From: a virus
Strand: one strand, 5' to 3'
DNA length: 37,489 nt
Virus record (IMG/VR): IMGVR_UViG_3300027607_000009
Span: 1 to 37,489 of that record
In this document: piece by piece, positions 54 to 14,645 of the stretch
How positions within the stretch are numbered: position 1 is the first letter of the stretch
Layout of the letters: every line of letters starts with the position of its first letter
Made by a program: the position numbers and the translations under genes
Notes under the pieces: model-generated
The model's database searches: none
Seen by the model: the letters and a program-made list of their open reading frames with translations, nothing else
What the model was told of the DNA's origin: nothing

Positions 54-127
54 GCGGGTATAGCATAGTGGTAATGCTCCAGCCTTCCAAGCTGGCTAGA
101 GGGGTTCGATTCCCCTTACCCGCTCCA
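54..127 (+). tRNA. tRNA-Gly (anticodon UCC), prophage target
   Basis: A 74-nt cloverleaf can be drawn: acceptor GCGGGTA pairs with TACCCGC at 117-123, then discriminator T and an encoded CCA at 125-127. The anticodon stem is CCAGC/GCTGG with loop CTTCCAA, giving anticodon TCC (glycine, GGA/GGG codons). The T arm GGGG-TTCGATT-CCCC is canonical. It is presumably a host gene, and the integrase running towards it from the right stops inside it. That is the usual sign that the phage integrated at this tRNA and restored its 3' half. Confidence 0.95.
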
Positions 128-1706
128 CCACAAAAGTACCTTGTGGCGCCGGCCGGCCCGTTGCGAGGGCGAGGATCGCCTCAGCTCTTCCCTCAACCTC
201 GATCGACATGCCTCGCCGCTCAGCCTTTGGCGTCAATATCACGCGCGATACCAGCTGCCTGATGGCCCTTTGAGCATCACTGCCGGCCGGCGTGTCATCG
301 TTGATGAGGCGTGCCATATCCCGCACGACCCTCTCGTAAGCCTCTCCGATGTTCGGATGCAGTGTGATCACCCGCTCCGCCTCGCGTGCTCGATGTGCAG
401 TTGCGATCTCTTCGCGCTCAGCTCTCAGTTCCGCCAGGCGCGCGGCCACCTCATCGATATCGCCGGCACCGGCCTCGACCAGTTTGAGGATCCGCTCGAT
501 CTTTTGATCAAGCTCGCGTCCGCGGCGATTGGCAAGCTTGTCTGCGGCCGCTTGTTCGCGATCGAGCTTGGCGCGTTCCTGATGGTAGATCCGCAAAGCC
601 ATCGATAGTCGCTCGGGCCGAAGTAGCTCATCAGAGAGCCCGACCGTCACGCGCCGCTCCACCATTCCAATACTGGCGGTTCGGCGATTGCTGCACGTGC
701 CCTTGTTTCGCGCGTTGGAACACCCAACCTTGCCCTTGCTGACCACAATCATATTGCCGCCACATTCGCCGCATTCGATCAGGCCAGAAAGCATGCGCGC
801 CGGCCGACGCCTGGCGCCGAGCTTCGCTCCGCCATTCGCGCGCTTGCGCTCTCGAGCTCTAGCCCAGGTGTTGCGATCGACGATCGCCAACTCAGGCATT
901 GGCTTGCGGATCCACTCACTTTCTGGATTTTCCCGAATGACATATTTGCGGGTCTGCGGATCCATGATCTTGCTGGTCCGGCGGAAGATCAGCTCGCCGG
1001 CATAGATTGCGTTGCAAAGGATCCCATTGCCTCGCTTTTCCTGGCCATTGATGGCGCTGATTGACCATTTCCCGCCGCGTGGGCCTGGCACGCCTTCCTC
1101 ATTGAGTCGACGTGCGATCGTGAGCGGGCTGTCACCTTTGCCATATTCATCAAAGATGCGTTGCACGATCTTCGCTTGGCTTGGATCGATCTCGCGAAGG
1201 CCGCGGATCTGCTCGCCATGATCATCAAACTTGGCAATTCTGCGGTAGCCATAGGCAATCCCGCCAGGGATGAGGCCGCGGTCAACCTTGCCGGCCTGGC
1301 CACGGCGCACCTTGTCACCGAGATCCTTGCGAAACAGGCTTGCCATCGTGCCTTTGAAGCCGATGTGCATTTCCGAGATCTCACCCTCGGACAGCGTGAC
1401 GATGCCGGCGCCGGCGAATGAAACCTGCTTATAGAGCGCGGCGAGATCTTCCTGATCGCGGCTTAGGCGATCGATGGCCTCGGCCAACACGATATCGCAG
1501 CCACCATTGCTGACGTGCTCGAGCAGCGCTGTGAGACCAGAACGCTCGCGCACGGCGCCGCTGATGGCATAATCGGTGAACGTGCCAGTGATCTCCCATC
1601 CCTCGCGCTCGGCGCGCTCGCTGCAGACCCTCAGCTGATCGTCGATCGAGCTGTCTTTTTGCAGCTGGCTAGAAAATCTAGCGTAGAGGGCGGCGCGTAT
1701 CGTCAT
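96..1706 (-). CDS. int: Large serine recombinase / phage integrase
   Basis: A 536-aa site-specific recombinase that would integrate and excise the phage. The N-terminal resolvase domain begins ALYARFSSQ (nucleophile Ser12 or Ser13) and carries the family's arginines in AIDRLSRD (residues 78-84). A Recombinase domain follows, then a zinc ribbon with paired cysteines (IECGECGG then GCSN..GTCSN) and a long charged coiled coil. ATG 1706 is preferred because it begins at the resolvase domain; ATG 1724 and TTG 1751 are possible in-frame alternatives. It overlaps the upstream 44-aa gene by 29 nt and ends the leftward operon. The last residues (ERVRGIEPL) and the stop at 96-98 lie inside the tRNA-Gly gene. 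Serine integrases using tRNA targets are less usual than tyrosine integrases. Confidence 0.93.
   Translation of the reverse strand: MTIRAALYARFSSQLQKDSSIDDQLRVCSERAEREGWEITGTFTDYAISGAVRERSGLTALLEHVSNGGCDIVLAEAIDRLSRDQEDLAALYKQVSFAGAGIVTLSEGEISEMHIGFKGTMASLFRKDLGDKVRRGQAGKVDRGLIPGGIAYGYRRIAKFDDHGEQIRGLREIDPSQAKIVQRIFDEYGKGDSPLTIARRLNEEGVPGPRGGKWSISAINGQEKRGNGILCNAIYAGELIFRRTSKIMDPQTRKYVIRENPESEWIRKPMPELAIVDRNTWARARERKRANGGAKLGARRRPARMLSGLIECGECGGNMIVVSKGKVGCSNARNKGTCSNRRTASIGMVERRVTVGLSDELLRPERLSMALRIYHQERAKLDREQAAADKLANRRGRELDQKIERILKLVEAGAGDIDEVAARLAELRAEREEIATAHRAREAERVITLHPNIGEAYERVVRDMARLINDDTPAGSDAQRAIRQLVSRVILTPKAERRGMSIEVEGRAEAILALATGRPAPQGTFVVERVRGIEPL
99..127. other. Putative left attachment site (attL) in the tRNA 3' half
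   Basis: The tRNA 3' half is shared by the tRNA gene and the end of the integrase reading frame, so the crossover core probably lies in or near it. This is inferred from position only. No duplicate of this stretch is visible elsewhere in the window, so core length and the right site cannot be set. Confidence 0.4.
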
Positions 1707-1812
1707 GGCGGAATTGCGCGGCATGGTGATCGCGCGCGAGCTGTTTGGCAAGGGCGATAGCCAATGCGTCGAGCGGATCTTGCTCCGAAGTCAAGGCGCG
1801 CTTGGGTCTCAC
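1678..1812 (-). CDS. Small hypothetical protein upstream of the integrase
   Basis: A 44-aa reading frame starting with GTG in a GTGA overlap with the stop of the gene before it, matching the coupling seen throughout this operon. It is hydrophilic with an amphipathic, alanine-rich middle (DPLDALAIALAKQLARD) and a basic, histidine-containing end. It overlaps the integrase start by 29 nt in another frame. I do not recognise a family. Its place suggests translational coupling to the integrase or a small accessory role, but function is unknown. An internal TTG could also serve as start. Confidence 0.5.
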   Translation of the reverse strand: MRPKRALTSEQDPLDALAIALAKQLARDHHAAQFRHDDTRRPLR

Positions 1813-3719: not shown

Positions 3720-4144
3720 GCGGCTTCCAACTGTTGGACGCGCTCAGCGGTGACGCTGTCGCGTCGTTGAAGGGTGTGGTCTGGGGCGCCGAGTTCGAGC
3801 GCGAGCATTTGCAGGTCCCAGAAATGGTCCATCACCTTGGGAGCGACTGGGCCTGCATCCACCGGGTCACGCGCCACGTTGCGCGCCCGCGCCAGCTCAC
3901 CAAGATAGTCCGCAGGATCAGCGATCATGCTCGCAGTGAGCTTGCCCTTTACGCCCGATGGAAAGATCAGATCGGTCTCAAGCTCGGGTAGGTCGGCCCC
4001 GGCTGCTGCCGCAATCGCCAACCACAGGCGTGCATGGCGATTGGCCTCGCGTTTGGTCACCTTACCTAATTCGACCAAGCGGATCGCGCGGGCGCGGCGC
4101 TTGGCGAATTGCTCAGCGGCGATCTGGGCGTGGAGGGCCGACAT
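3716..4144 (-). CDS. Hypothetical helical protein (142 aa)
   Basis: ATG 4144 is chosen because it forms a TGATG overlap with the stop of the preceding gene; an in-frame upstream start at 4192 would intrude into that gene. The N-terminal third is strongly basic and helical (QFAKRRARAIRLVELGKVTKR, shown to 20 residues or fewer at a time in the frame), followed by an alanine-rich stretch and an acidic C-terminal helix with SVTAERVQQLEAA. It resembles small phage proteins whose role is unassigned. No enzyme motif is visible. Confidence 0.75.
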   Translation of the reverse strand: MSALHAQIAAEQFAKRRARAIRLVELGKVTKREANRHARLWLAIAAAAGADLPELETDLIFPSGVKGKLTASMIADPADYLGELARARNVARDPVDAGPVAPKVMDHFWDLQMLALELGAPDHTLQRRDSVTAERVQQLEAA

Positions 4145-4563
4145 CAATTGTCGAACCAAAAGACGAGTCGATACTCTGCGTTTTCTGGCCAATCGAGATC
4201 GACGCCAAATAGGTCATAATGTGCCCAGTCCTTTCGGACCTCGGCGTCATTCGGGTTCTCAGCGCGCCAGGCCTCAATGAATTCCTCAAGCGAGCAATAG
4301 GACGCTGAATGGTGATCCGTCGGTGAGAGCATGTAGAGCGACCAAGCAAGTCGACTCACATCTTCAGGAATGTTTCGGGGGTAGATGGCGTTTCCGTCAT
4401 CCCGCGGCCCGCGAACACCAAACCGGCTGAACAGGCCATAATCTCGACGCGCGCACTTGGGTCGACCCCACCTGTCTGGCAGATTGTCGCTGCACCACTG
4501 ACCGATCCATTCGCCTGAATCGCGCTTACGTCTCTCAAGCACAATGTGAATGTCACAACCCAT
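4144..4563 (-). CDS. MGCDIH-type phage hypothetical protein
   Basis: A 139-aa protein beginning MGCDIHIVLERR, the signature opening of a widespread phage family usually annotated only as hypothetical. The conserved body is also present: YGLFSRFGVRG followed by a 'P.NIP.D' stretch and a late DLDWPENAEYRLVFWF. ATG 4563 is preceded by a strong AGGAGG at about 8-nt spacing. It is the first gene of the leftward operon and lies just downstream of the operator-containing promoter pL, so it is expected to be repressed in the lysogen. The biochemical role of the family is not known to me. Confidence 0.85.
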   Translation of the reverse strand: MGCDIHIVLERRKRDSGEWIGQWCSDNLPDRWGRPKCARRDYGLFSRFGVRGPRDDGNAIYPRNIPEDVSRLAWSLYMLSPTDHHSASYCSLEEFIEAWRAENPNDAEVRKDWAHYDLFGVDLDWPENAEYRLVFWFDN

Positions 4564-4593
4564 TTTCACCCTCCTGCGATGGCTGATGGCGCA

Positions 4594-4623
4594 TAAATGA
4601 TGGAAAACTCCATCATAAGTCAA
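4594..4623 (-). promoter_or_regulatory. Putative early leftward promoter pL
   Basis: On the minus strand TTGACT (4623-4618) is a good -35 box. The 18-20 nt after it contain the operator, then a weak AT-rich -10 region (CATTTA/ATTTAT around 4599-4593). The rightward promoter upstream of 6261 has the same geometry: TTGAC, then 2 nt, then the TGATGGA half-site. That parallel is the main support. The -10 assignment is uncertain. Confidence 0.6.
4597..4616. promoter_or_regulatory. Putative repressor operator OL
   Basis: A perfect inverted repeat, ATGATGGA-AAAC-TCCATCAT: 8-bp arms with a 4-bp spacer. It lies between the -35 and -10 regions of the putative pL promoter, so a bound repressor would block RNA polymerase. 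Two related sites occur at 6157-6176 and 6214-6233. Confidence 0.75.
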
Positions 4624-4697
4624 GCGGAAATTACCATCATTTGGGGTGGTTGTGCGCTTGTGCTAAGCTCAAGCGACTGAATTCAGGGATTTTTGTG

Positions 4698-5264
4698 ATG
4701 GCAAAAACATTTTCCGAGCGGCCGCTTTGGCAACGGATCATCATGATTGTGGGCTGGATCGCGGTCGGTCTGATCTTCTTCGTTCTGTATCTCGCGATGA
4801 CGAGTGATCCCGAGCCAGGGTCTGATGACTATTTGGCGCAACTGCAGTCCATGGCTGACTATCGACAAGAGCTGATCAACGCGGGCGATACCTGTGGCCT
4901 CGCGACAGCAGCGGCGGGCGTCATGATGGAGCGATCGCAGGAATCAGGGGTTGATCGATATGAGTTCGCCGAGGTCATCAGCCGGATGGAGATGCGGTGC
5001 ACGGCGGCATGGATGGAGTTCGGTGAGCTGAGCCCACCCAGTGGCCTGACCGATGACCGCACGCGCAGGGCAAGTGATGCAACCGAGATCTGCCGGTCAG
5101 TCGCCTACGCGCGCAAGGAATTGGCCAAGAGCTTCATGCCCGTGATCGACGGTGATGAGCGGCCAAGTGTGTTGGTGGAACTTCGCCGTGAGGTTGATGG
5201 AGCCGTGCGTGTGGCTCAACAATGCACAGAAGCGCGCGATGCTTTGCTAGAGGAGGGCATGTAA
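4698..5264 (+). CDS. Membrane-anchored hypothetical protein with extracytoplasmic Cys domain
   Basis: A 188-aa protein starting MAKTFSERPLWQR, with one transmembrane helix (IIMIVGWIAVGLIFFVLYLA, residues ~14-33) and a ~150-residue domain predicted outside the cytoplasm. That domain has four spaced cysteines (DTCGL, MRCTA, TEICRS, AQQCTE), suggesting two disulphides. ATG 4698 is preferred over an upstream in-frame start because the membrane domain begins here and AGGGA precedes it. It lies between pL and the convergent repressor gene, where lysogen-expressed accessory genes such as superinfection exclusion factors are often found. I recognise no family, so that role is a guess. Confidence 0.75.
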   Translation: MAKTFSERPLWQRIIMIVGWIAVGLIFFVLYLAMTSDPEPGSDDYLAQLQSMADYRQELINAGDTCGLATAAAGVMMERSQESGVDRYEFAEVISRMEMRCTAAWMEFGELSPPSGLTDDRTRRASDATEICRSVAYARKELAKSFMPVIDGDERPSVLVELRREVDGAVRVAQQCTEARDALLEEGM

Positions 5265-5265
5265 G

Positions 5266-5397
5266 ATGATTGATGGACTGACAGAGTTTGCCTTTGCTGT
5301 GGCGGCGCTCGCCACACCGCTTCTGCTGCTCTTCATTCTTATGAGGCTTGAATCAATCCTCATCGAGCTACAGCACCTGAACCGAATTCGTGATTAG
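5266..5397 (+). CDS. Small membrane protein (43 aa)
   Basis: ATG 5266 follows a strong GAGGAGG and begins 1 nt after the previous stop. The 43-aa product is a short polar start (MIDGLTEF), one hydrophobic helix (AFAVAALATPLLLLFILM) and an amphipathic tail (RLESILIELQHLNRIRD). It ends by overlapping the convergent repressor gene's stop by 3 nt. It is presumably co-expressed with the upstream membrane protein. No family recognised. Confidence 0.65.
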   Translation: MIDGLTEFAFAVAALATPLLLLFILMRLESILIELQHLNRIRD

Positions 5398-6158
5398 CCG
5401 AAGAGAAGATCGGTTTGCGGCATGATACGATGAACCCGCTTCACGCGCTTTCCAGGCACGGTGAATGTCAGCGGCGGGTTGAACTGTTCGAGCAGTAGAT
5501 CGCGCCCGAGCTTGCGCACCAATCGTTTGACCAGAACGGTGGCAACATCCTCATCTTCGCCATTGGTCAATTGGACCAAGACATAGTCACCAGGTCGGAC
5601 GGGGCGGACGGGATCGACGATCCCGACCTCACCTGGCTCGAAGCGCGGAACCATGCTCTCGCCTTGGAAATAGATCGCATAGAGATCACGCGCACCAAGT
5701 AGCGCGGGCGGGCGAATGATCATGCGCACAGAGTAGTCGGGATCGAATGAATTGCGTTCGACCTCAACGGCATTGCCGTGCTCATCCGCCAGCGTGATTT
5801 CGCCGCAATCGCCCGTGCCGACAAGCGGGATCATGGGTGATGACGAAGCCTGTGCGGCCGCACTCAGGTTGCCGGCAGGGTCCTCGGGTGGCTTGATTGC
5901 GCCAGTGATCTCAACCTCGCTGGCGACGGCGGCCGGATCGTTGGTCCGACCCACCAGATAGTCGACACTCAAGTTGGTCGCGAGCGCGAGGCGTCGCAAG
6001 CGCGCCTCCTTTGGGATCGAGCCAGAGCGGGCGACATCAGCAAAGACGCCTCCGCTCTTCTGGTCGCTGATTTCAAGCGAGAGCGAGCGGCGTGAACGGC
6101 CAGCATCAGCCAACCACGCGTCCACCCGCTCAAGGAAAATCTTGGCCTTCTCAGTCAT
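5394..6158 (-). CDS. CI/LexA-type phage repressor (S24 peptidase family)
   Basis: A 254-aa repressor. The N-terminal ~75 residues (MTEKAKIFLERVDAWL ... RLALATNLSVDYLVG) match the helix-turn-helix region of S24-type prophage repressors. The C-terminal domain has the Ser/Lys dyad: Ser168 in FQGESMVPRF and Lys211 in VLVKRLVRK, with 'PGDYVLVQL' between. A candidate self-cleavage Ala-Gly pair lies at 95-96 in the linker, so RecA-stimulated autocleavage is plausible. ATG 6158 is chosen because the reading frame before it has no repressor-like sequence. The start codon overlaps an operator copy (6157-6176), implying autoregulation. It is the only plausible master of lysogeny in the immunity region. 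Confidence 0.9.
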   Translation of the reverse strand: MTEKAKIFLERVDAWLADAGRSRRSLSLEISDQKSGGVFADVARSGSIPKEARLRRLALATNLSVDYLVGRTNDPAAVASEVEITGAIKPPEDPAGNLSAAAQASSSPMIPLVGTGDCGEITLADEHGNAVEVERNSFDPDYSVRMIIRPPALLGARDLYAIYFQGESMVPRFEPGEVGIVDPVRPVRPGDYVLVQLTNGEDEDVATVLVKRLVRKLGRDLLLEQFNPPLTFTVPGKRVKRVHRIMPQTDLLFG

Positions 6159-6176
6159 GATGGAACAATCCAACAT
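6157..6176. promoter_or_regulatory. Putative repressor operator at the repressor start
   Basis: ATGATGGA-ACAA-TCCAACAT is the same 8-4-8 layout as the sites at 4597 and 6214, with one mismatch between the arms. It begins one base before the repressor's own ATG (read on the minus strand), so occupancy would cut repressor expression. Confidence 0.6.
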
Positions 6177-6206
6177 TGCTTTCCGCAAATCAAAATGGGT
6201 TTTTCC

Positions 6207-6236
6207 TTGACAAGTGATGGAAACCTCCATCATACC
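6207..6236 (+). promoter_or_regulatory. Putative early rightward promoter pR
   Basis: TTGACA (6207-6212) is a consensus -35 box. An 18-nt spacer filled by the operator leads to CATACC (6231-6236), a weak -10. The GTG start of the first rightward gene follows about 25 nt later, with an AGAGGAG ribosome-binding site between. The arrangement mirrors pL. Confidence 0.65.
6214..6233. promoter_or_regulatory. Putative repressor operator OR
   Basis: GTGATGGA-AACC-TCCATCAT differs from the perfect palindrome at 4597-4616 in the first base of the left arm and in the spacer. It occupies the spacer of the putative pR promoter, 2 nt after the -35 box, exactly as in pL. Confidence 0.75.
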
Positions 6237-6260
6237 CGGCGCCGACAAGAGGAGCCGAGT

Positions 6261-6539
6261 GTGAACTTTAGCGATCCATCTCAAGATAGGGCCCAGTCGA
6301 CGACACCGTCGACCGGAAATCTGGGCCAATTGTCCGGTTACGATGCGGCGCTGCCAGCCATCGAGCGCTTCCTGAAGCACCACGACATGGCAGCAAGCAC
6401 GTTTGGTCGTGATGCGGTCAGTGATCCTGGCTTGGTGACTGGTCTGCGCGACGGCCGTGAGCTGCGCCGCGCCACTCGCGCAAAAATCATGGCCTTCATG
6501 ACCGAGTTTGAAGAGAGCCAAGCCGAGGCCGTGCAATGA
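6261..6539 (+). CDS. Cro-position DNA-binding protein (92 aa)
   Basis: GTG 6261 is chosen over in-frame upstream codons because AAGAGGAG sits at good spacing and it lies just downstream of pR. The C-terminal half (FLKHHDMAASTFGRDAVSD, then PGLVTGLRDGRELRRATRA) follows a pattern common in alphaproteobacterial small HTH proteins: 'FG..AV.DP.LV..LR.GRELR..TR.KI..FM'. As the first gene after pR, divergent from the repressor, it probably plays the Cro-like part. That role rests on position and the HTH resemblance. The N-terminal ~35 residues are Ser/Thr/Pro rich and probably disordered. Confidence 0.8.
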   Translation: MNFSDPSQDRAQSTTPSTGNLGQLSGYDAALPAIERFLKHHDMAASTFGRDAVSDPGLVTGLRDGRELRRATRAKIMAFMTEFEESQAEAVQ

Positions 6540-7036
6540 GCGTGCGTGGTCGAATTAAGCGCGCCGTGCGCGAGGCCATTGCTGCCAGCGGTGGAATCGA
6601 TGGTGCTGCGCGCACTGTCGACAAACAACGCAGTTGGGTTGGCGATTGGAACAATCGCAACAATGCAGCCACACCGAACCAGATCGATGCGCACACTCTC
6701 GATGAGGTGGCGCTGGTCGAAACCGGTCGCGCTCCAATCCTTGAGGCTCGCGCAGCTGAGTTGGGCTATTGCGCAATCCGCCTGCCCGAGTGCGAGGCTG
6801 GAGCAAGCCTGATCGCTTTGGAGCTGGGCAAATGCGCCAGTGAGTTCGGCGATGTCGCTCGCGAAGCGACAGCGGCTTTGGAGGATGACGGCAAGGTCTC
6901 TCCCAAAGAAGAGCAGCGCATCGTTCTGGAAATCGACGAAGCGGTGCAGCGGCTGCAAAGCCTGCGCGCGCTGGTCATCAACAGCAATCAATCTGGCCCT
7001 GTGTCGCTCAGCGACAAAGCGAAGGCGCAGGGGTGA
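6536..7036 (+). CDS. CII-like phage regulatory protein
   Basis: A 166-aa protein whose ATG lies in an ATGA overlap with the previous gene. The N-terminus (VREAIAASGGIDGAARTVDK, then SWVGDWNNRN) and the following TPNQIDAHTLDEVALVETGRAP match the layout of the phage regulatory CII / Cox-type family (PF06892, by memory). In that family an HTH is followed by 'P..I....L..L....G.PI...LA...G'. The C-terminal half is helical (GDVAREATAALEDDGKVSPK). It is expected to be a DNA-binding regulator of the lysis/lysogeny choice. A search against PF06892 would settle the family. Confidence 0.75.
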   Translation: MSVRGRIKRAVREAIAASGGIDGAARTVDKQRSWVGDWNNRNNAATPNQIDAHTLDEVALVETGRAPILEARAAELGYCAIRLPECEAGASLIALELGKCASEFGDVAREATAALEDDGKVSPKEEQRIVLEIDEAVQRLQSLRALVINSNQSGPVSLSDKAKAQG

Positions 7037-7626
7037 TGGCGGTGGGGGTCGCCGCACGCGATACGTTTGTTCTCAACCTGGCCTCGGTTGCGCCGTTGCG
7101 CGAGCTGGAGGACTGGTTTGCCAATGCTGCACCGGGTGAAAGCGCGCAATATGCCAGCGGCATCGACCTGCCCCGCAATGAAGAAAGTGTGCGCTGGGCC
7201 AACCGGATGCAATCGCGTGGATTGGCCAAACTGAGTTCGAAACCAGAGCGTCACTCAAAAGAGCGCTGGTGCTGGATCATCACCAAAGCCCCGCTTGAAG
7301 ACGCGCTGCCCAAGCAAGAGGCGGACACCGCACAGCGGGTCAATCCCACACGGTCGCAATGCGAACAATTGCTGACTCATTTGCGGACCTGCGCCGACAT
7401 TGGTCAAGAATGCCCGAGTTATCGTGCAATGGCGTCGCATCTGGACCTGCCGGAGAATGCGCGTGGTCGCGAGCGAGCGCGGTACTTGGTCCAGCGCCTC
7501 GAAGCAGATGGCGCGATCAAGGTAACTGCAGGATCATCCAAGCGCAGCCTTGTGGTGATGATCTGCGCGCCCGGTGTGGCGCAGGGCCAGTCAACCAAAT
7601 CATCGATATCGGAGGGTTGTGCATGA
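7036..7626 (+). CDS. Hypothetical protein with winged-helix-like C-terminus
   Basis: A 196-aa protein; ATG 7036 forms a TGATG overlap, and GTG 7033 is an alternative. The C-terminal part reads ECPSYRAMASHLDLPENARG, then ARYLVQRLEADGAIKVTAGS, ending in a beta-like SLVVMI. This is the pattern of a winged helix with a 'P....M....L......V...L..L...G.I' recognition unit, as in LexA-type N-termini and many phage replication accessory proteins. It lies between the CII-like gene and the sliding clamp, so a replication or regulatory role is plausible. The N-terminal half is unrecognised. Confidence 0.65.
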   Translation: MAVGVAARDTFVLNLASVAPLRELEDWFANAAPGESAQYASGIDLPRNEESVRWANRMQSRGLAKLSSKPERHSKERWCWIITKAPLEDALPKQEADTAQRVNPTRSQCEQLLTHLRTCADIGQECPSYRAMASHLDLPENARGRERARYLVQRLEADGAIKVTAGSSKRSLVVMICAPGVAQGQSTKSSISEGCA

Positions 7627-8771
7627 AATCGGGATTTTGCCCCGCAAGCGAACTGGCGAAAGCACTCAAGATCGCGGCCCAGGTCGTCGAGCGGCGCGAC
7701 ACGCTGCCAATCCTCAAGCATGTACTGATCGACGCTCGCGATGGCGAGTTCACGATCACCGCAGGTGATGACGGCGTCCAGTTCACGCAGCGGCTTGATG
7801 CAGAGATCGCAGAGCCGTTCACCTGCACTGCGCCGGCAGAGAAGCTCAGCCAAATCGCATCGGCAGTACCACAAGACAAGGCGATCACACTCAAGCTGCG
7901 CGAGAATGCGCGCCTTGGGGTCAGTGCGGGTCGAGGTCATTGGCAATTGCCGTGCCTAAAGCCTGATGATTTTCCTTTGATGCCGCCACCGGAAACGGGA
8001 TTTTCGGTCCGCGTGATGGCGCAAGCTTGGGCGGAATTGATCGAGCGGGTTCGGGGCTTTGCCGGCGAAGTTCCTGGCAAGACGCATTTCAGCGGCCCCT
8101 TGTGGCATGTGCGCGATGGGATCGCGAGCTTGGCTGCGACGCAGGGACATTGCCTGGTCAGCGCCCCTTATCGTGATCTTGCGTGGCCAGAAGACGCGCC
8201 TGAAATTGCGATTGGGCCAAAGGCGCTGCGCGTCATGGCCAGCATGGGCGCACAGGCCAGCGCGGATGAAGAGGCAAAATTCGCGTGGTCCGAGAGCTTG
8301 ACCCACTACCAGCAAGGTGGTGCTGAGCTGATCGGCAAAACTTTGGTCGGCACATGGCCCGACTATTCCAAATTTCTCCCCCAGGACGTTGCAAGCCCGC
8401 TGCGATTTGATCCTGCACACCTCTTGGCTGCGATCAAGCGGGTGCAGATCATTGCTCCAAGCAAGGATCCGGCGCTTGAGCTGACCCCAACAGACGGAAA
8501 ACTGGTCATTGCCACCTTTGCCAAAGACGGCGCGAGCGAAGCCAATGAGGCGGTCAGTGCTGAATGCAGCAAGACATTCCCGACCGCGATCAACCCCAAT
8601 TACCTGACCCAGATGATGGCTGCCATCGGTGGCGACACGATCGAGGTGCATCAGTCGGGACCGAATGAGAACGCGCTGTTTAGGCGCGTCCCAAGCGACG
8701 GTGCGGTGGGGATGATCCAACCGCTCAAGACGCTGGTTAAACCTGAAGCTGAAACGGAGGAGGCTCAATGA
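7623..8771 (+). CDS. dnaN: DnaN-type DNA polymerase III beta subunit (sliding clamp)
   Basis: A 382-aa protein with the family's hallmark start: helix ASELAKALKIAAQVVERRDT followed by LPILKHVLIDARDG, then ITAGDDGVQFTQR. A late KLVIATFAKDG-like strand and a C-terminal segment (FPTAINPNYLTQMMAAIGGD, 'F.iNp.YL...l..i') are also typical. Bacterial clamps are about 370 aa, so the length fits. The ring would tether the replicative polymerase to DNA. ATG 7623 overlaps the previous stop as ATGA; longer in-frame upstream sequence does not look clamp-like. No polymerase gene is seen in the window, so this clamp probably works with, or competes for, the host polymerase III. Confidence 0.88.
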   Translation: MKSGFCPASELAKALKIAAQVVERRDTLPILKHVLIDARDGEFTITAGDDGVQFTQRLDAEIAEPFTCTAPAEKLSQIASAVPQDKAITLKLRENARLGVSAGRGHWQLPCLKPDDFPLMPPPETGFSVRVMAQAWAELIERVRGFAGEVPGKTHFSGPLWHVRDGIASLAATQGHCLVSAPYRDLAWPEDAPEIAIGPKALRVMASMGAQASADEEAKFAWSESLTHYQQGGAELIGKTLVGTWPDYSKFLPQDVASPLRFDPAHLLAAIKRVQIIAPSKDPALELTPTDGKLVIATFAKDGASEANEAVSAECSKTFPTAINPNYLTQMMAAIGGDTIEVHQSGPNENALFRRVPSDGAVGMIQPLKTLVKPEAETEEAQ

Positions 8772-9088
8772 GGCAGCACATCTTTGATGAGCAGTTTGAT
8801 GAACTGGCGAAGGCGGTGTTTGCCGACGATCTCGCTCAGGCAAAAACGGTCCTGGTGCAAATGCGCCAAATTGCTGACCCAGATCTATTTGATCGTATTG
8901 TCAGGACTGAGCGTGCGGCTGTTCCGCAGCCGAGCGAACTCACAAATCCACTGGCAAAGAGCGAGCTATTTCCGGCGCACGGCCATGCACCAGGCTCGAC
9001 GATCAGCATGCCTAAGCTGGCGAAGAAGCCGGCCAAACCCAAACGCCGCAAGACCAAGGTGCGTCGCAAGCGGAAAGTGGCGGCGTGA
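8768..9088 (+). CDS. Hypothetical protein with basic C-terminal tail (106 aa)
   Basis: ATG 8768 overlaps the clamp stop (ATGA) and the product ends in a GTGA overlap with the next gene. The N-terminal ~45 residues are helical and acidic (DEQFDELAKAVFADDLAQAK). The last ~25 residues are almost all Lys, Arg, Pro and Ala (KPKRRKTKVRRKRKVAA), a nucleic-acid-binding type of tail. No domain is recognised. Lying between clamp and initiator-like genes, it may assist replication, but this is inferred from position. Confidence 0.7.
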   Translation: MRQHIFDEQFDELAKAVFADDLAQAKTVLVQMRQIADPDLFDRIVRTERAAVPQPSELTNPLAKSELFPAHGHAPGSTISMPKLAKKPAKPKRRKTKVRRKRKVAA

Positions 9089-9897
9089 GCAGACCTCACC
9101 GAATCGAATGGACGCATGCGATGATTGATCGGCTCAAGCGCATGTATGCCGACGGGTACAACATGACGCTGATCGGCCAGTCACTCGGGCTTAGCCGGCA
9201 GGTCGTCGGCCGAAAGTTGTGTGACTTGGGACTCAAACGCCCACGCCTGACCAAGCCTCAACTGTCGCGGACCGATGCACCAACTGTGTCACGAGATCGG
9301 GTGCCAGGCGCGGCAACGATCGAATTGCCACGCTCCAAGCGACTCACATCGACCACTGATCTAGTGGCGCACGCCTGCCAACTCGCGCATCTAAGTCATG
9401 CCCAGATGCGCGATGTGACCAAGACGCGATATGCTCGCGTCCGCTGGGCTGTTATTGCTTGCGCGAAATCGCAATGGCCGACTTTCAAATACGGTCAGCT
9501 GGGCAGGCTGGTTGGCATGGCCGACCACACATCGGTCATCTATGCGCTGCGCCAGGCTGAAAAGCTGCTTGTTATTGATCCAGAGTTTCGCGCGTTCTGC
9601 GAGCGATTGCTGGGTGACGATGCGCCTGTGGCGTTGGCGTGGATTGACCGACCACCACGCAGCGAACCTGCATGTGCGCGGCTGCTTGAAGGCATTCCCG
9701 AAGAAGGTGTTGGCCCAATCATTCATCCGACAAAGGAGCCGGGCCCCAAACTGTCACCGCAGGAATTGTTTGAACGTCGAGAGTGCGCTGAGACCGCGCG
9801 ACAGCAGAACGAACGCAGATGGCTTGCCGCAGAGCGCGCACGCTGGGGGAGCACCCGACAGACCCGCACCGGGCCCTTATCCGGGCAGGTGGCGTGA
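9085..9897 (+). CDS. Fusion of GcrA-like HTH and DnaA domain IV (initiator-like)
   Basis: A 270-aa protein with two DNA-binding regions. Residues ~8-52 (EWTHAMIDRLKRMYADGYNM then TLIGQSLGLSRQVVGRKLCD) follow the N-terminal helix pattern of the alphaproteobacterial cell-cycle regulator GcrA. Residues ~115-163 match DnaA domain IV: VRWAVIACAKSQWP, then YGQLGRLVGMADHTSVIYAL, where DHTSV (147-151) is the box that contacts DnaA boxes. There is no AAA+ ATPase domain, so this is not a full DnaA. The C-terminal ~70 residues are charged and helical. GTG 9085 overlaps the previous stop (GTGA). Next to the clamp and upstream of the helicase-primase, it is the best candidate for marking the phage origin. 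Confidence 0.85.
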   Translation: MSRPHRIEWTHAMIDRLKRMYADGYNMTLIGQSLGLSRQVVGRKLCDLGLKRPRLTKPQLSRTDAPTVSRDRVPGAATIELPRSKRLTSTTDLVAHACQLAHLSHAQMRDVTKTRYARVRWAVIACAKSQWPTFKYGQLGRLVGMADHTSVIYALRQAEKLLVIDPEFRAFCERLLGDDAPVALAWIDRPPRSEPACARLLEGIPEEGVGPIIHPTKEPGPKLSPQELFERRECAETARQQNERRWLAAERARWGSTRQTRTGPLSGQVA

Positions 9898-11180
9898 ATG
9901 TGCTGGGTCTATGTGCCGGGGTTGGAGGTCTCGAACTTGGCCTCAAGCTCGCCGTGCCCGGAGCGCGCGGCGTCGCTTACGTGGAGAGGGAAGCCTTTGC
10001 CGCCGCGAACCTTGTTGCGCGAATGGAAAGCGGCGCGCTTCATCCGGCGCCTGTCTGGTCTGATCTTGCCACTTTCGACGCTCGACAATGGCGTGGCATC
10101 GTGGATTGCGTCACTAGCGGAGACCCGTGCCAGCCCAACAGCGTCGCCGGAAAAGGCGAAGGCGCAGACGACGAACGCTTTCTCATCGACCAGGTTGTTC
10201 GCATCGTCGAGGAGTGCCGGCCTGATCGTGTGTTCCGAGAGAACGTCACAGGGAATGCTGACGGGCAGCTCGCCGCTTTGGTCCCGGCATTGGAAGGGCT
10301 GGGCTACCGCGTTGCGGCAGGAATATTCAGCGCGGCCGAAGTGGGGGCGAGTCATCGGCGCGATCGATTGTTCATTATGGCGCTCGCCGGCGACAGCCGA
10401 GGCTGGAGTGACAGCGCACGACCTGGTCACGGCGACGGGCGAGCCGTGGACGCCGGGTCAGAGAGCATACGACCCGGACACCGGGCGAATGGCGCAGACG
10501 GGACTGACCCAACAAGCTCAGATTTGGCAGACGCCAGCGACGGACAGTTTCCGCAGCAGGGGCGGCGATCGAAAGGACGAGATGGGTCCGGACCAGCAGG
10601 CTCGGACTTGGCCGACGCCGATGGCGGGTACACCAGCGCAGAACGGCAACAGCGCGGCGGGGAATTTGGACTTCAGCCGTCAGGTGATGGCCACAGTCGA
10701 GAAATGGGCGACACCCCAGGCCCGAGATCACTTTCCGCCGCACAGTCAGGAGCGGATCACTGCGATGAAGGCCGAGGGTCATGGGATGCGCAATCTCAAC
10801 GACGAGGCAGCAGCATGGCCGACGCCGGCAGCGAGAGATCACAAGGGGGCGAACAGCGAGGATCATGTGACGACGAACGGCACGGGCCGGATGCACATGG
10901 ATCAGCTTCCGAACTTTGTGGAACACACGTTCCCTTCTTCGCCCCAGGGCCAAACGACCCCAGCTGGCAAACCATCATCGGATTTGCGCCGGAGCTTGAA
11001 CCCGCGATTTGTCGAATGGCTGATGGGCTGGCCCATCGGGTGGACCGACTTCGAGCAACAGGAAATGGGGTTGTCCCTCTGGCAGCGGCTTGGGCGTGGC
11101 ATGCTCTCGATGCTTGTCACCGAGCCTCCCTTGCAAGCGACAGGCCAGCAACACGCGCAGCCCAGCAAGGGGTTGTTTGA
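9894..11180 (+). CDS. dcm: DNA (cytosine-5) methyltransferase
   Basis: A 428-aa C5-cytosine methyltransferase starting at GTG 9894 (GTGA overlap). Motif I is LCAGVGGLELG (6-16). The catalytic motif IV is SGDPCQPNS with Cys79. Motif VI is ENV (116-118) and motif VIII is HRRDRLF. Motif X (RATGNGVVPLAAAWAW) is at the end. The ~210 residues between VIII and the C-terminus are low complexity (LADASDG, LADADGG, ADAGSE repeats), in the place of the target-recognition region. Their DNA is also open in the +1 frame (see the overlapping entry). The product probably protects phage DNA from host restriction or modifies regulatory sites; specificity cannot be read. Confidence 0.9.
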   Translation: MNVLGLCAGVGGLELGLKLAVPGARGVAYVEREAFAAANLVARMESGALHPAPVWSDLATFDARQWRGIVDCVTSGDPCQPNSVAGKGEGADDERFLIDQVVRIVEECRPDRVFRENVTGNADGQLAALVPALEGLGYRVAAGIFSAAEVGASHRRDRLFIMALAGDSRGWSDSARPGHGDGRAVDAGSESIRPGHRANGADGTDPTSSDLADASDGQFPQQGRRSKGRDGSGPAGSDLADADGGYTSAERQQRGGEFGLQPSGDGHSREMGDTPGPRSLSAAQSGADHCDEGRGSWDAQSQRRGSSMADAGSERSQGGEQRGSCDDERHGPDAHGSASELCGTHVPFFAPGPNDPSWQTIIGFAPELEPAICRMADGLAHRVDRLRATGNGVVPLAAAWAWHALDACHRASLASDRPATRAAQQGVV

Positions 11181-11187: not shown

Positions 11188-11776
11188 TGGTGCGGCCTTT
11201 GGTGTCGATCTACGGCGTGAGATGATCGACTTCGGATTGCCTTGGCATGGTTGCCGGCGATTGATGCAGTTGGGGTTTGACGGCCGTCTGATTGCGGAAC
11301 TGGGCGCACAACTGGCAATCGGCCAGGCGCGCGTTCAGATCTCGCGGGATGGCTATCATTTTGAGCCCCACGGACCCGATGCCAGGTTGCTTTTGGCGGT
11401 CCTAGAGCGCGGTGACTTTGTCGACATCTGTGCGGTCTCGACAAGCGATGCCGATAGCTGGGCGCTACGTATCGGCCAGGGTTGGTGCCTCGGTCACGAC
11501 GATTACGACAAGGCGCTCAATACGAGCCTGCGCGAACGTCAATGCATTCTGCGTGTCTTTGGCTCCCCACTCGACTGGCTGCGCGCGGGTTGTGCAGGCA
11601 TCTGTGTGCTGGATTGGGTGGCCGCGCTGCCAGAGTTGAGGCTTTTGAGCGAGCGGGTGCAATTGAAGGTGGATGCGGGTGCCGGCGAAAGGATGCGAGC
11701 CTTGCTCGCCTATGGCGATTTGCCGCGCGTGAGCGAGGCGCCGCCGGTCAGAATTCAGGAAAGGGAGGTGGCGTGA
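11180..11776 (+). CDS. Hypothetical phage protein (198 aa)
   Basis: ATG 11180 forms a TGATG overlap with the methyltransferase stop, and the gene ends in a TGATG overlap with thyX. The sequence is mixed alpha/beta with PWHGCRRLMQLGFDGRLIAE, then ISRDGYHFEPHGPDARLLLA and FVDICAVSTSDADSWALRIG, plus a leucine-rich end. I recognise no catalytic motif with certainty. Lying between DNA modification and nucleotide metabolism genes, an early DNA-metabolism role is plausible but unassigned. Confidence 0.75.
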   Translation: MPDGAAFGVDLRREMIDFGLPWHGCRRLMQLGFDGRLIAELGAQLAIGQARVQISRDGYHFEPHGPDARLLLAVLERGDFVDICAVSTSDADSWALRIGQGWCLGHDDYDKALNTSLRERQCILRVFGSPLDWLRAGCAGICVLDWVAALPELRLLSERVQLKVDAGAGERMRALLAYGDLPRVSEAPPVRIQEREVA

Positions 11777-12450
11777 TGCAGCGGGTTGATGTGCTTGACC
11801 ATGGCTATGTGAGGCTGGTTGATTCAATGGGCGGCGACTTGAGTGTCGTGCGTGCCGCCCGTGTTTCATACGATGCGGCGTGGCGTGCAGGAGAGGACCA
11901 AGGCAGCGATCATCGCTTGATCCATTACCTCTGGTCGCACCATCACACGACGCCGTTCGAGGCGGTGACGCTGACGTTTGAAGTGCATGCGCCGATCTTC
12001 GTTTTTCGGCAATGGCATCGCCATCGGACATGGTCATTCAATGAGTTGAGCGCGCGATATCGTGAGCTGCCTGACGAGTTCTATGTGCCGGACGTTGAGA
12101 ACATTTGCGCCCAATCCATGAGCAACAAGCAGGGGCGGGGCAGCGCCCTAGGCGGCGCGCAGGCCATGCAGGTTCAAGAACAAATCCGCGATTCGAACGC
12201 CGCTGCCTTTGTCGACTATCGCGAATTGATCAGGGCGGGGGTCGCGCGCGAGCTTGCCCGCTCTGTGCTTCCCGTTGGCACCTATTCGACGATGTTCGCG
12301 ACCGTCAATCTGCTCAATCTGATGAAGTTCCTCACGCTGCGATGTGATGAGCATGCGCAGTATGAAATCCGAGTTTACGCCGATGCGCTGCGTGAGCTTG
12401 CGCGGACTGTCGCGCCGATCTGTCTTGAAGCTTGGGAGGGTGAAAAATGA
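11776..12450 (+). CDS. thyX: Flavin-dependent thymidylate synthase
   Basis: A 224-aa ThyX, which makes dTMP from dUMP with methylene-tetrahydrofolate, NADPH and FAD. The diagnostic motif RHRTWSFNELSARY (residues 82-95) matches RHR-x(7)-S. The N-terminus has VRAARVSYD and HHHTTPFEAVTLTFEV, and the end has LNLMKFLTLRCDEHAQYEIR with the conserved late 'R....AQ.EIR'. All are typical. Length is usual for the family (~220-250). AAGGGAGG precedes ATG 11776. Phages carry it to raise dTTP supply for genome replication. Confidence 0.96.
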   Translation: MQRVDVLDHGYVRLVDSMGGDLSVVRAARVSYDAAWRAGEDQGSDHRLIHYLWSHHHTTPFEAVTLTFEVHAPIFVFRQWHRHRTWSFNELSARYRELPDEFYVPDVENICAQSMSNKQGRGSALGGAQAMQVQEQIRDSNAAAFVDYRELIRAGVARELARSVLPVGTYSTMFATVNLLNLMKFLTLRCDEHAQYEIRVYADALRELARTVAPICLEAWEGEK

Positions 12451-12689: not shown

Positions 12690-14645
12690 GTGCCCAACCA
12701 GAACCGCCTTGCCGGCCCCGCCTCGGCGGGAAGCCATGACGCTGCGCCATCGACCGCGCAGTTGCTTGAAATCGGCGCTGCCGGCCGCATTCGTGTGGCC
12801 CCAGACCTGCCGCGTGATCTGACCTGCGCGTTCCTGTCGCTGACCGATATGGGCAATGCCGAGCGCTGGCGGGTGCGCCACGGCGACGACTTTCGTTTTT
12901 GCGACAAGATTGGCTGGTTTATGTGGGACGGCCGGCGCTGGCGTCTGCTGTCTGAAGAAAAGGACGCGCTGCCGGCCGAGGTAATGCAGAGCGTTTTCAG
13001 CACAATCCGCGCGATCGCCAATGAGGCGGCGCTGATTGCGGCGCTGGGCTGTGAAATGCCAGACCTGCCCGACGAAAAGCTCGGTTGGTTCATGGCGTGG
13101 GCGCGCGGGGAGCAGGCCGAAGGCTGGGACGCCCTGACTCGCAGCATTGCGTGGCAATATCCTGCCAATGAGGAGGGTGAGCGGCCGCCTGAATACGACC
13201 AAGCGATCGAGCGCGCCAAAGCCTTCATTGAGACCTGCGATGTGCAGGATTTCGCGATTGAGACCCAGCCCAGCAAGCGCAAATTGTGGAGCCACACGAT
13301 CAAGGCACATGGCAAGCAATCCGAGGGATCGGGCAAGCTGGCGGCGGTTGCCAAGCTGGCTCGCGCCTTTCCCGGCATTGCAGTGGAGCCCGATGCCTTC
13401 GACCAGGACCGCATGGCGATAAACGTGCTCAACGGCACGCTGAGACTGGATCGCCGAAAGGTGAAGCGATCCGCCGAGGAGGTTGCGGCCGGAAAGTCGG
13501 TTTGGAAGGTGGATGGCTGGAAGATCAGAAAGCATCCGCACAATCGCGAGGATCTAATCACCAAGCTGGCCCCGGTGAAGTTCGCGCCAAGCGCCAAAGC
13601 CCCGGTTTGGGATGAATTCATCGCCAAAATGCAGCCCGACCAGGCAATGCGGCGATTCATCCATCAATGGTTTGGCCTGTCGCTGACCGGCGACATCGGC
13701 GAGCAGAAGCTGGCGTTCTTCTATGGCTCCGGTCGCAATGGCAAAGGTACATCGGTTGAGGCCGTGGCGCATCTGGCCGGCGACTATGCCGGATCTATCC
13801 CGATCGAGAGCTTTCTCGACAGCGGGATCAAGAGGCGCGGCGATCAGGCGACGCCCGATCTCGCGCGGCTCCCCGGCGTACGCTTTTTGCGCGTTTCCGA
13901 GCCGGAGCGGAATGCAAAGCTCAATGAGGGCCTGGTGAAGATGGTAACTGGCGGTGATCCGGTGGATGCCCGCCATCTCAACAAAGGCTTCTTCACCTTC
14001 CTGCCTGATTTCAAGATGACGATATCGGGCAATCACAAGCCAGACATCAAGGACACCAGCGACGGCATCTGGCGGCGCATGCAATTGGTGCCATGGGATC
14101 AGAAGGTTCCACGAGAGGAGGTTGATCGCGATCTCCCAGCCAAGCTGCAGGCCGAGGCGAGCGGCTTGCTCAACCGGTTGCTAGAGGGGTTGTGCGATTG
14201 GCGAGAGCATGGGTTAATCGAACCCAAGCAGGTGCGCATGGCGACCGAGGCCTATCGCGACCAATCCGACGAACTGGGCAAGTTCCTGTCTGACACATGC
14301 GATGTGGGCGATGACCTACCCGACCGTCCGATGCGGGTCGGGGCCAAGGAGCTGCACGACACCTATCTGGCCTGGTGCGCTGATGCTGGTGGGGCCAGTT
14401 GGAGCACCAGGGGCTTCAAGAAGGCGATGATCGACAAGGGGTTCGAGCAGAAGGCCTCGAACGGGATGAAGTGGCTTGGTATTGCGCTGCGCGACGGCGT
14501 CGATGCCGAAACGATCCGTGATGGAGATTGGAGCTCGGCGAAGCCCGCAGGAGAGGGCGGTGCGGCCGGCGATGGCGCGAGTGCCTTTGATGATGATCGC
14601 TGGGATGGTGAGTCTGATCCATGGAGGCCAGACGATGGGGATTGA
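12690..14645 (+). CDS. Phage P4-type DNA primase / SF3 helicase
   Basis: A 651-aa protein beginning with GTG directly after the previous stop. The middle carries a D5-type N-terminal region (residues ~150-300). An SF3 helicase ATPase follows with Walker A GSGRNGKGTS (346-355), a B-type motif around FLRVSEPE (399-406) and a C motif MTISGNHKPDI with the family's sensor Asn. The next segment (DGIWRRMQLVPWD) is also typical of P4/D5 proteins. The C-terminus has a winged-helix-like SWSTRGFKKAMIDKGF and a disordered acidic tail. It is the replicative helicase, probably with primase activity. No Toprim or CHC2 zinc motif is visible in the N-terminal 150 residues, so the priming domain is uncertain. 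Confidence 0.9.
   Translation: MPNQNRLAGPASAGSHDAAPSTAQLLEIGAAGRIRVAPDLPRDLTCAFLSLTDMGNAERWRVRHGDDFRFCDKIGWFMWDGRRWRLLSEEKDALPAEVMQSVFSTIRAIANEAALIAALGCEMPDLPDEKLGWFMAWARGEQAEGWDALTRSIAWQYPANEEGERPPEYDQAIERAKAFIETCDVQDFAIETQPSKRKLWSHTIKAHGKQSEGSGKLAAVAKLARAFPGIAVEPDAFDQDRMAINVLNGTLRLDRRKVKRSAEEVAAGKSVWKVDGWKIRKHPHNREDLITKLAPVKFAPSAKAPVWDEFIAKMQPDQAMRRFIHQWFGLSLTGDIGEQKLAFFYGSGRNGKGTSVEAVAHLAGDYAGSIPIESFLDSGIKRRGDQATPDLARLPGVRFLRVSEPERNAKLNEGLVKMVTGGDPVDARHLNKGFFTFLPDFKMTISGNHKPDIKDTSDGIWRRMQLVPWDQKVPREEVDRDLPAKLQAEASGLLNRLLEGLCDWREHGLIEPKQVRMATEAYRDQSDELGKFLSDTCDVGDDLPDRPMRVGAKELHDTYLAWCADAGGASWSTRGFKKAMIDKGFEQKASNGMKWLGIALRDGVDAETIRDGDWSSAKPAGEGGAAGDGASAFDDDRWDGESDPWRPDDGD

Follow-up and report, generated by a model that had tools for sequence, protein, structure and literature searches.

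We found that positions 4594-6236 of the window (the whole stretch of DNA analysed, the 37,489-base virus record IMGVR_UViG_3300027607_000009) very probably belong to a CI-type immunity region, that is, to the region with which an uncharacterised temperate phage switches between lysis and lysogeny. It is well supported that this switch has five operators, two of them weak in the window, rather than three, and is richer than the original prediction had described. The five-operator layout is common to 13 other alphaproteobacterial phages and prophages (12 relatives and the cultured Aurantimonas phage AmM-1), with OR1 and OL1 in the spacers of pR and pL, OR2 and OL2 upstream of the -35 boxes, and OR3 at the repressor start codon. 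The comparison with the relatives thus favours the compact lambda-like switch, with operators inside pL and pR, that had been proposed from the window's sequence. The features are listed in Table 1.

Table 1. Operators, promoter elements and genes of the putative immunity region
Feature	Position	Strand	Remarks
First leftward gene (pL operon), 139 aa	4144-4563	-	phrog_10141, unknown function, 2.4e-11
pL -10 candidate TCATTT	4595-4600	-	17 nt spacing; weak consensus match
OL1	4597-4616		Perfect palindrome; within pL spacer, 1 nt from TTGACT
pL -35 box TTGACT	4618-4623	-	TTGAC there in 12/12 relatives
OL2	4621-4640		Degenerate; upstream of and overlapping pL -35 box; contains half-site 4633-4640
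Repressor (CI-like), 254 aa	5394-6158	-	N-terminal HTH and C-terminal S24 peptidase-like domain
OR3	6157-6176		One mismatch; adjoins repressor ATG, covers candidate PRM -10
Candidate PRM -10 GATTGT	6165-6170	-	Inside OR3, 6 nt before ATG
Candidate PRM -35 TTGATT	6188-6193	-	Inferred; 4/6 consensus match
OR2	6192-6211		Degenerate; upstream of and overlapping pR -35 box; missed in the original prediction
pR -35 box TTGACA	6207-6212	+	TTGAC there in 11/12 relatives and AmM-1; not in L010
OR1	6214-6233		GTGATGGA-N4-TCCATCAT, one arm change; within pR spacer, 1 nt past TTGACA
pR -10 region	6230-6236	+	TCATAC (17 nt spacing) or CATACC (18 nt); weak consensus match; OR1 end overlaps
First rightward gene, Cro-position protein, 92 aa	6261-6539	+	34% identical to L010 protein in same place
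CII-like regulator	6536-7036	+	PF06892, E 2.3e-12; phrog_101 CII-like activator, 3.6e-16

The operators are 20 bp long and built as 8-N4-8, with the window consensus ATGATGGA-N4-TCCATCAT. When all 37,489 bases were searched with up to three mismatches allowed, this consensus matched at OR1, OR3 and OL1 and nowhere else; 0.22 matches were expected by chance, and none of 100 dinucleotide shuffles reached three. The three palindromes had been placed correctly, and the one called imperfect, OR3, carries a single arm change, as does OR1. Both outer sites begin, as claimed, directly after a TTGAC(A/T) box, at a distance of 1 nt, and OR3 overlaps the repressor ATG (6158, minus strand) by 2 nt. A matrix made from OR1 and OR3 alone gave OL1 a score of 23.9, which none of 300 shuffles equalled. 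The search for more operators elsewhere in the window gave a next best score of 13.3, compared with 24-26 for the three sites, which is the chance level for its length. Since the sites are short, with 16 specified bases, they might be chance palindromes or repeats with no regulatory role; the excess over the expected number argues against this, and the reading is already refuted by the 13 other phages in which the layout is kept while the sequence changes, so that we give it practically no credence.

The 12 relatives were gathered in IMG/VR and among Sphingomonadales genomes (order and family of Erythrobacter), and the repressors of the 11 with an intact gene are 31-57% identical to that of the window. 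Two further phages, L011 and L012, were left out of the comparison because their repressors match in the C-terminal part only. Upstream of every relative's repressor gene there are three 20-bp palindromic 8-N4-8 sites, which start, counted from the A of the start codon (0), at -75 to -78 (OR1; -87 in L010), at -53 to -55 (OR2) and at -18 to -21 (OR3; -29 in L022). OR1 has a counterpart at the same position in the 12 relatives and AmM-1, and OR3 in all the relatives. The OR1-OR2 distance is 24 bp in 10, and the OR2-OR3 distance 35 bp in 11, of the 13 phages (12 relatives and window); in L022, OR3 lies 10 bp closer to OR2 (25 vs 35), about one helical turn. On the left side, each 2-kb stretch behind a repressor gene was scanned with a matrix made from the OR sites only, and the best site lay at a TTGAC box in every phage (13/13). 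Shuffling the same stretch 300 times gave no site as good in 11 of the 13 phages, one in L021 and six in L026. The own pL region was the best or second-best target of the matrix in 12 of the 13, and the matrix of one phage mostly found the pL of phages of the same operator class, not of other classes. OL1 begins inside or directly after the TTGAC box, and in ten relatives the upstream distance to OL2 is 29-30 bp. As in lambdoid switches, operators are therefore shared by pR and pL, which diverge from and flank the repressor gene, and there are three OR sites, one of them over the putative PRM; the middle one is degenerate in the window. In one relative (L009, IMGVR_UViG_3300003961_000002, positions 3882-4110) a short tandem duplication beyond the HTH disrupts the repressor reading frame, while all five operators are intact; it may be a clear (non-lysogenising) mutant or an assembly error.

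The window's own second sites are the degenerate ones. On the reverse strand OR2 reads GTCAAGGA-AAAA-CCCATTTT and scores 5.9, where the mean is -16.5 and 0.13% of window positions reach as much; its distance to OR3 is 35 bp, the usual one among the relatives, and that to OR1 is 22 bp rather than the typical 24. OL2, ATGATGGT-AATT-TCCGCTTG on the same strand, scores 4.5 (0.16% of positions) and is separated from OL1 by 24 bp; L024 (23) and L025 (24) have a similar spacing, the other relatives one of 29-30 bp. The weak half-site ACCATCAT noticed earlier at 4633-4640 is indeed present and turns out to be the right, good arm of this full-length degenerate site. The original prediction of a single operator in each lytic promoter did not hold as a description of the architecture: every relative has two per lytic promoter, and in the window OR2 and OL2 remain, in degraded form, where the second sites of the relatives lie. 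A single-operator state may be the endpoint of this phage's drift.

It might still be that only three sites work in the window phage, one in each lytic promoter and one at the repressor start, with OR2 and OL2 as non-functional remnants. The two score far below the other three, and the PRM -35 box, poor in most relatives, is best in the window (TTGATT), a slight hint that activation from OR2 could be dispensable there. However, both sit where the relatives have good sites, they keep GGA-N4-CCC and TGGT-N4-TCC cores, very few positions of the window score as high, and they could be filled cooperatively with the help of a strong neighbouring site. We therefore regard the loss of their function as a serious possibility but not as the preferred reading, which is that of five operators with two weak ones.

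The -35 boxes of pR and pL are strong, and their -10 hexamers are poor relative to the E. coli consensus. A sigma-70 consensus scan of positions 4200-6600 found no promoter, and because of this imbalance between the two boxes the scan carries no promoter claim. For PRM, most of the phages have a -10-like hexamer that lies within OR3, its end 6 nt ahead of the start codon: it is GATAAT in L024, L025 and L026, and GATACT, GATACG, GATGAT and GATTGT in L023, L004, L005 and the window, respectively. Given this position, the PRM -10 box probably lies within OR3 and the repressor mRNA is probably leaderless. The presence of OR3 in the same place in the relatives supports the earlier suggestion that a third site at the repressor start is suited to autoregulation. 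If the PRM start is taken at the ATG, OR2 is centred, judged by position only, at about -43.5. In lambda, OR2 is centred near -42 of PRM, where CI activates this promoter, and the nearness of the two positions makes positive autoregulation via OR2 likely in the relatives; in the window phage it is uncertain. On the rightward side, the first gene of L004, L005, L006, L009 and L022 starts about 8-10 nt past the -10 region of pR, so a leaderless pR message is probable in these phages, and in the window a Shine-Dalgarno-like AGAGGAG precedes the GTG start at 6261.

Which protein recognises the operators? Within one phage the half-site is mostly the same, and between phages it differs: ATGATGGA in the window, ATGCGGGA in L004, L005, L023 and L026, TGGA/TGGG types in L006, L007, L009 and L021, GCGGA in L022, GGGGA in L024 and L025, and TTAGC in L010. 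Apart from L010, the phages almost always keep a GG 3.5 and 4.5 bp from the dyad; the bases that vary between phages are those at 5.5-7.5 bp. Recognition-helix regions of the S24 repressors pair with these classes, GKPDLIRD with CGGGA, YVRDLLDPD with TGGA/TGGG, and TDGS-inserted helices with GGGGA. In a partial Mantel test with the C-terminal distance held constant, operator distance correlated with HTH distance (r 0.66, p 0.0001; r 0.63, p 0.0004 without L010), p-values that are optimistic, being partly affected by ancestry within classes, since the correlation is based on 12 related repressors. Without L010, operator and C-terminal distances were not correlated (r -0.07). As the half-site tracks the recognition-helix region and not the C-terminal domain, there is good computational evidence that the S24 repressor binds the operators, as the original prediction had assumed. 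The sites could instead be read mainly by the Cro-position protein or the CII-like protein; the Cro-position gene adjoins OR, and Cro proteins of lambdoid phages usually share the operators of the repressor. We think this very improbable, because in 12 phages the half-site changes with the S24 repressor's HTH and because, as judged by eye, L004 and L005 have the same half-site as L023 and L026 but different HTH regions in the Cro-position protein.

The S24 repressor has the features of an S24/LexA-type CI protein. Its S24 domain matches PF00717 (E 4.6e-7), and the protein matches a transcriptional repressor family in PHROGs (3.9e-15). In the model predicted from an alignment of the repressors of the window and 11 relatives (mean pLDDT 80.8), the C-terminal half matches the folds of LexA and lambda CI (Z about 12) and the N-terminal half that of P22 c2 (Z 7.8), with an HTH identity of 23%; the predicted HTH helices are 23-30 and 38-45. 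The sequence profile of the family matches P22 c2, the solved structure whose sequence the N-terminal domain resembles most, and the 434 repressor, consistent with a 434/P22 c2-type HTH. The N-terminal HTH of the window's protein stays below any Pfam HTH model, and that of L004 reaches HTH_3. Ser168 (in GESM) and Lys211, the S24 Ser-Lys dyad, are invariant in the 12-sequence alignment, and Cys118-Gly119 (Cys-Ala in most relatives) falls, by the aligned ranges, where the LexA/lambda cleavage bond would be. In repressors of this type, RecA stimulates self-cleavage at a bond that joins Ala or Cys to Gly. The predicted peptidase fold, the dyad and Cys118-Gly119 together make RecA-dependent induction plausible.

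We propose that the S24 repressor binds the 20-bp operators, probably as a dimer. At OR1 and OL1 it would span the spacer of pR and pL together with the beginning of the -10 box and so exclude RNA polymerase, silencing the leftward operon and the rightward operon with its Cro-position, CII-like and replication genes. OR2 and OL2 would be second, probably cooperative sites in the relatives, and weak ones in the window phage. Since OR3 covers the repressor gene's -10 box and start codon, a high level of repressor would turn off its own leaderless message, and the switch would be released once the repressor is cleaved in the SOS response.

The neighbouring genes fit this picture in their order: the S24 repressor and the CII-like gene are arranged as expected of a CI-type immunity region, and in relatives, too, OR is followed by a small protein and then by a CII-like one. 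The Cro-position protein has no Pfam match, and among viral contigs no relatives of it or of the CII-like protein were confirmed. Between the repressor and pL, an open reading frame at 4698-5264 (plus strand) starts beside OL2 and faces the repressor; its product has one N-terminal hydrophobic stretch and four cysteines and matched no family or phage protein. Relatives carry other small membrane or lipoprotein-like genes at this place, and the genes between repressor and pL are candidates for expression in the lysogen. Similar cysteine spacing suggested that the product of 4698-5264 and its counterpart in L005 are a shared membrane protein, but BLAST gave this no support and it is not claimed. 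Further along the plus strand, the window encodes a DNA polymerase III beta clamp (7359-8771; PF00712, PF02768), which is annotated near the repressor in AmM-1 too; a protein (9085-9897) that weakly resembles GcrA at its N-terminus and also the C-terminal part of DnaA, both below the Pfam cut-offs, and is possibly linked to the alphaproteobacterial cell cycle; and a ThyX-type thymidylate synthase (11482-12450; PF02511, 1.3e-52), near which lie a C-5 cytosine methylase (9819-11180) and a D5-like primase/helicase (12690-14645). A large serine recombinase, the integrase, is encoded at the left end of the record (96-1751, minus strand).

AmM-1 (AB967974) is among the closest known systems. Its CI repressor is 29% identical to that of the window over its length, and, like the window group, it has three OR and two OL sites, placed around TTGAC boxes at closely similar distances, with an OL spacing of 29 bp and OR3 just before the ATG of the annotated CI gene. 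Unlike the window, its operator is GCGG-N8-CCGC; the sites are unannotated in its record. Rhizobium phage 16-3 (DQ500118), also alphaproteobacterial, has an S24-type C repressor and, as annotated, two operators each at PR and PL that flank the -35 box. Its repressor, however, resembles that of the window in the C-terminal part only (39% over 97 aa), its ACAA-type operators are 12-14 bp long, four are annotated and none of these as OR3, and OL lies directly behind the repressor gene, compared with about 780 bp away in the window. No ACAA-type operators were found in the window, and with 16-3 differing in both sequence and layout, the phage falls outside the 16-3 immunity type, which is defined by a full-length homologous repressor and such operators. 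Lambda shares the C-terminal fold of the repressor. In lambda, OR1-OR2-OR3 lie between the divergent PRM and pR, OR3 covers PRM, and the cI message is leaderless. The window differs from it in its 20-bp sites with a free N4 centre, its two OL sites, its OR3 at the start codon and its unrelated site sequence. The likeness to P22 c2 concerns the N-terminal domain, and the P22 operator has a different sequence. A literature search, with most subscription journals outside its reach, found no paper on the operators of this phage group.

The kind of switch is therefore already known from lambda, P22 and phage 16-3, and what is described here is a new, little-studied branch of it. We tentatively suggest, at somewhat less than even confidence, that the branch is a widespread and undescribed alphaproteobacterial class in which the five-operator frame is fixed, the PRM -10 box lies in the uncontacted N4 centre of OR3, and recognition helix and operator have co-diversified to give many immunity types; the phage of the window would be a derived member that has largely lost OR2 and OL2 and has a stronger PRM. 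Because the layout stays constant while the operator changes with the recognition helix, the group forms a natural data set for the code of repressor-operator recognition. It could help to predict the immunity of prophages against particular phages and could supply orthogonal repressors for sphingomonads, and it provides exact, testable sites in bacteria in which few phage switches have been studied.
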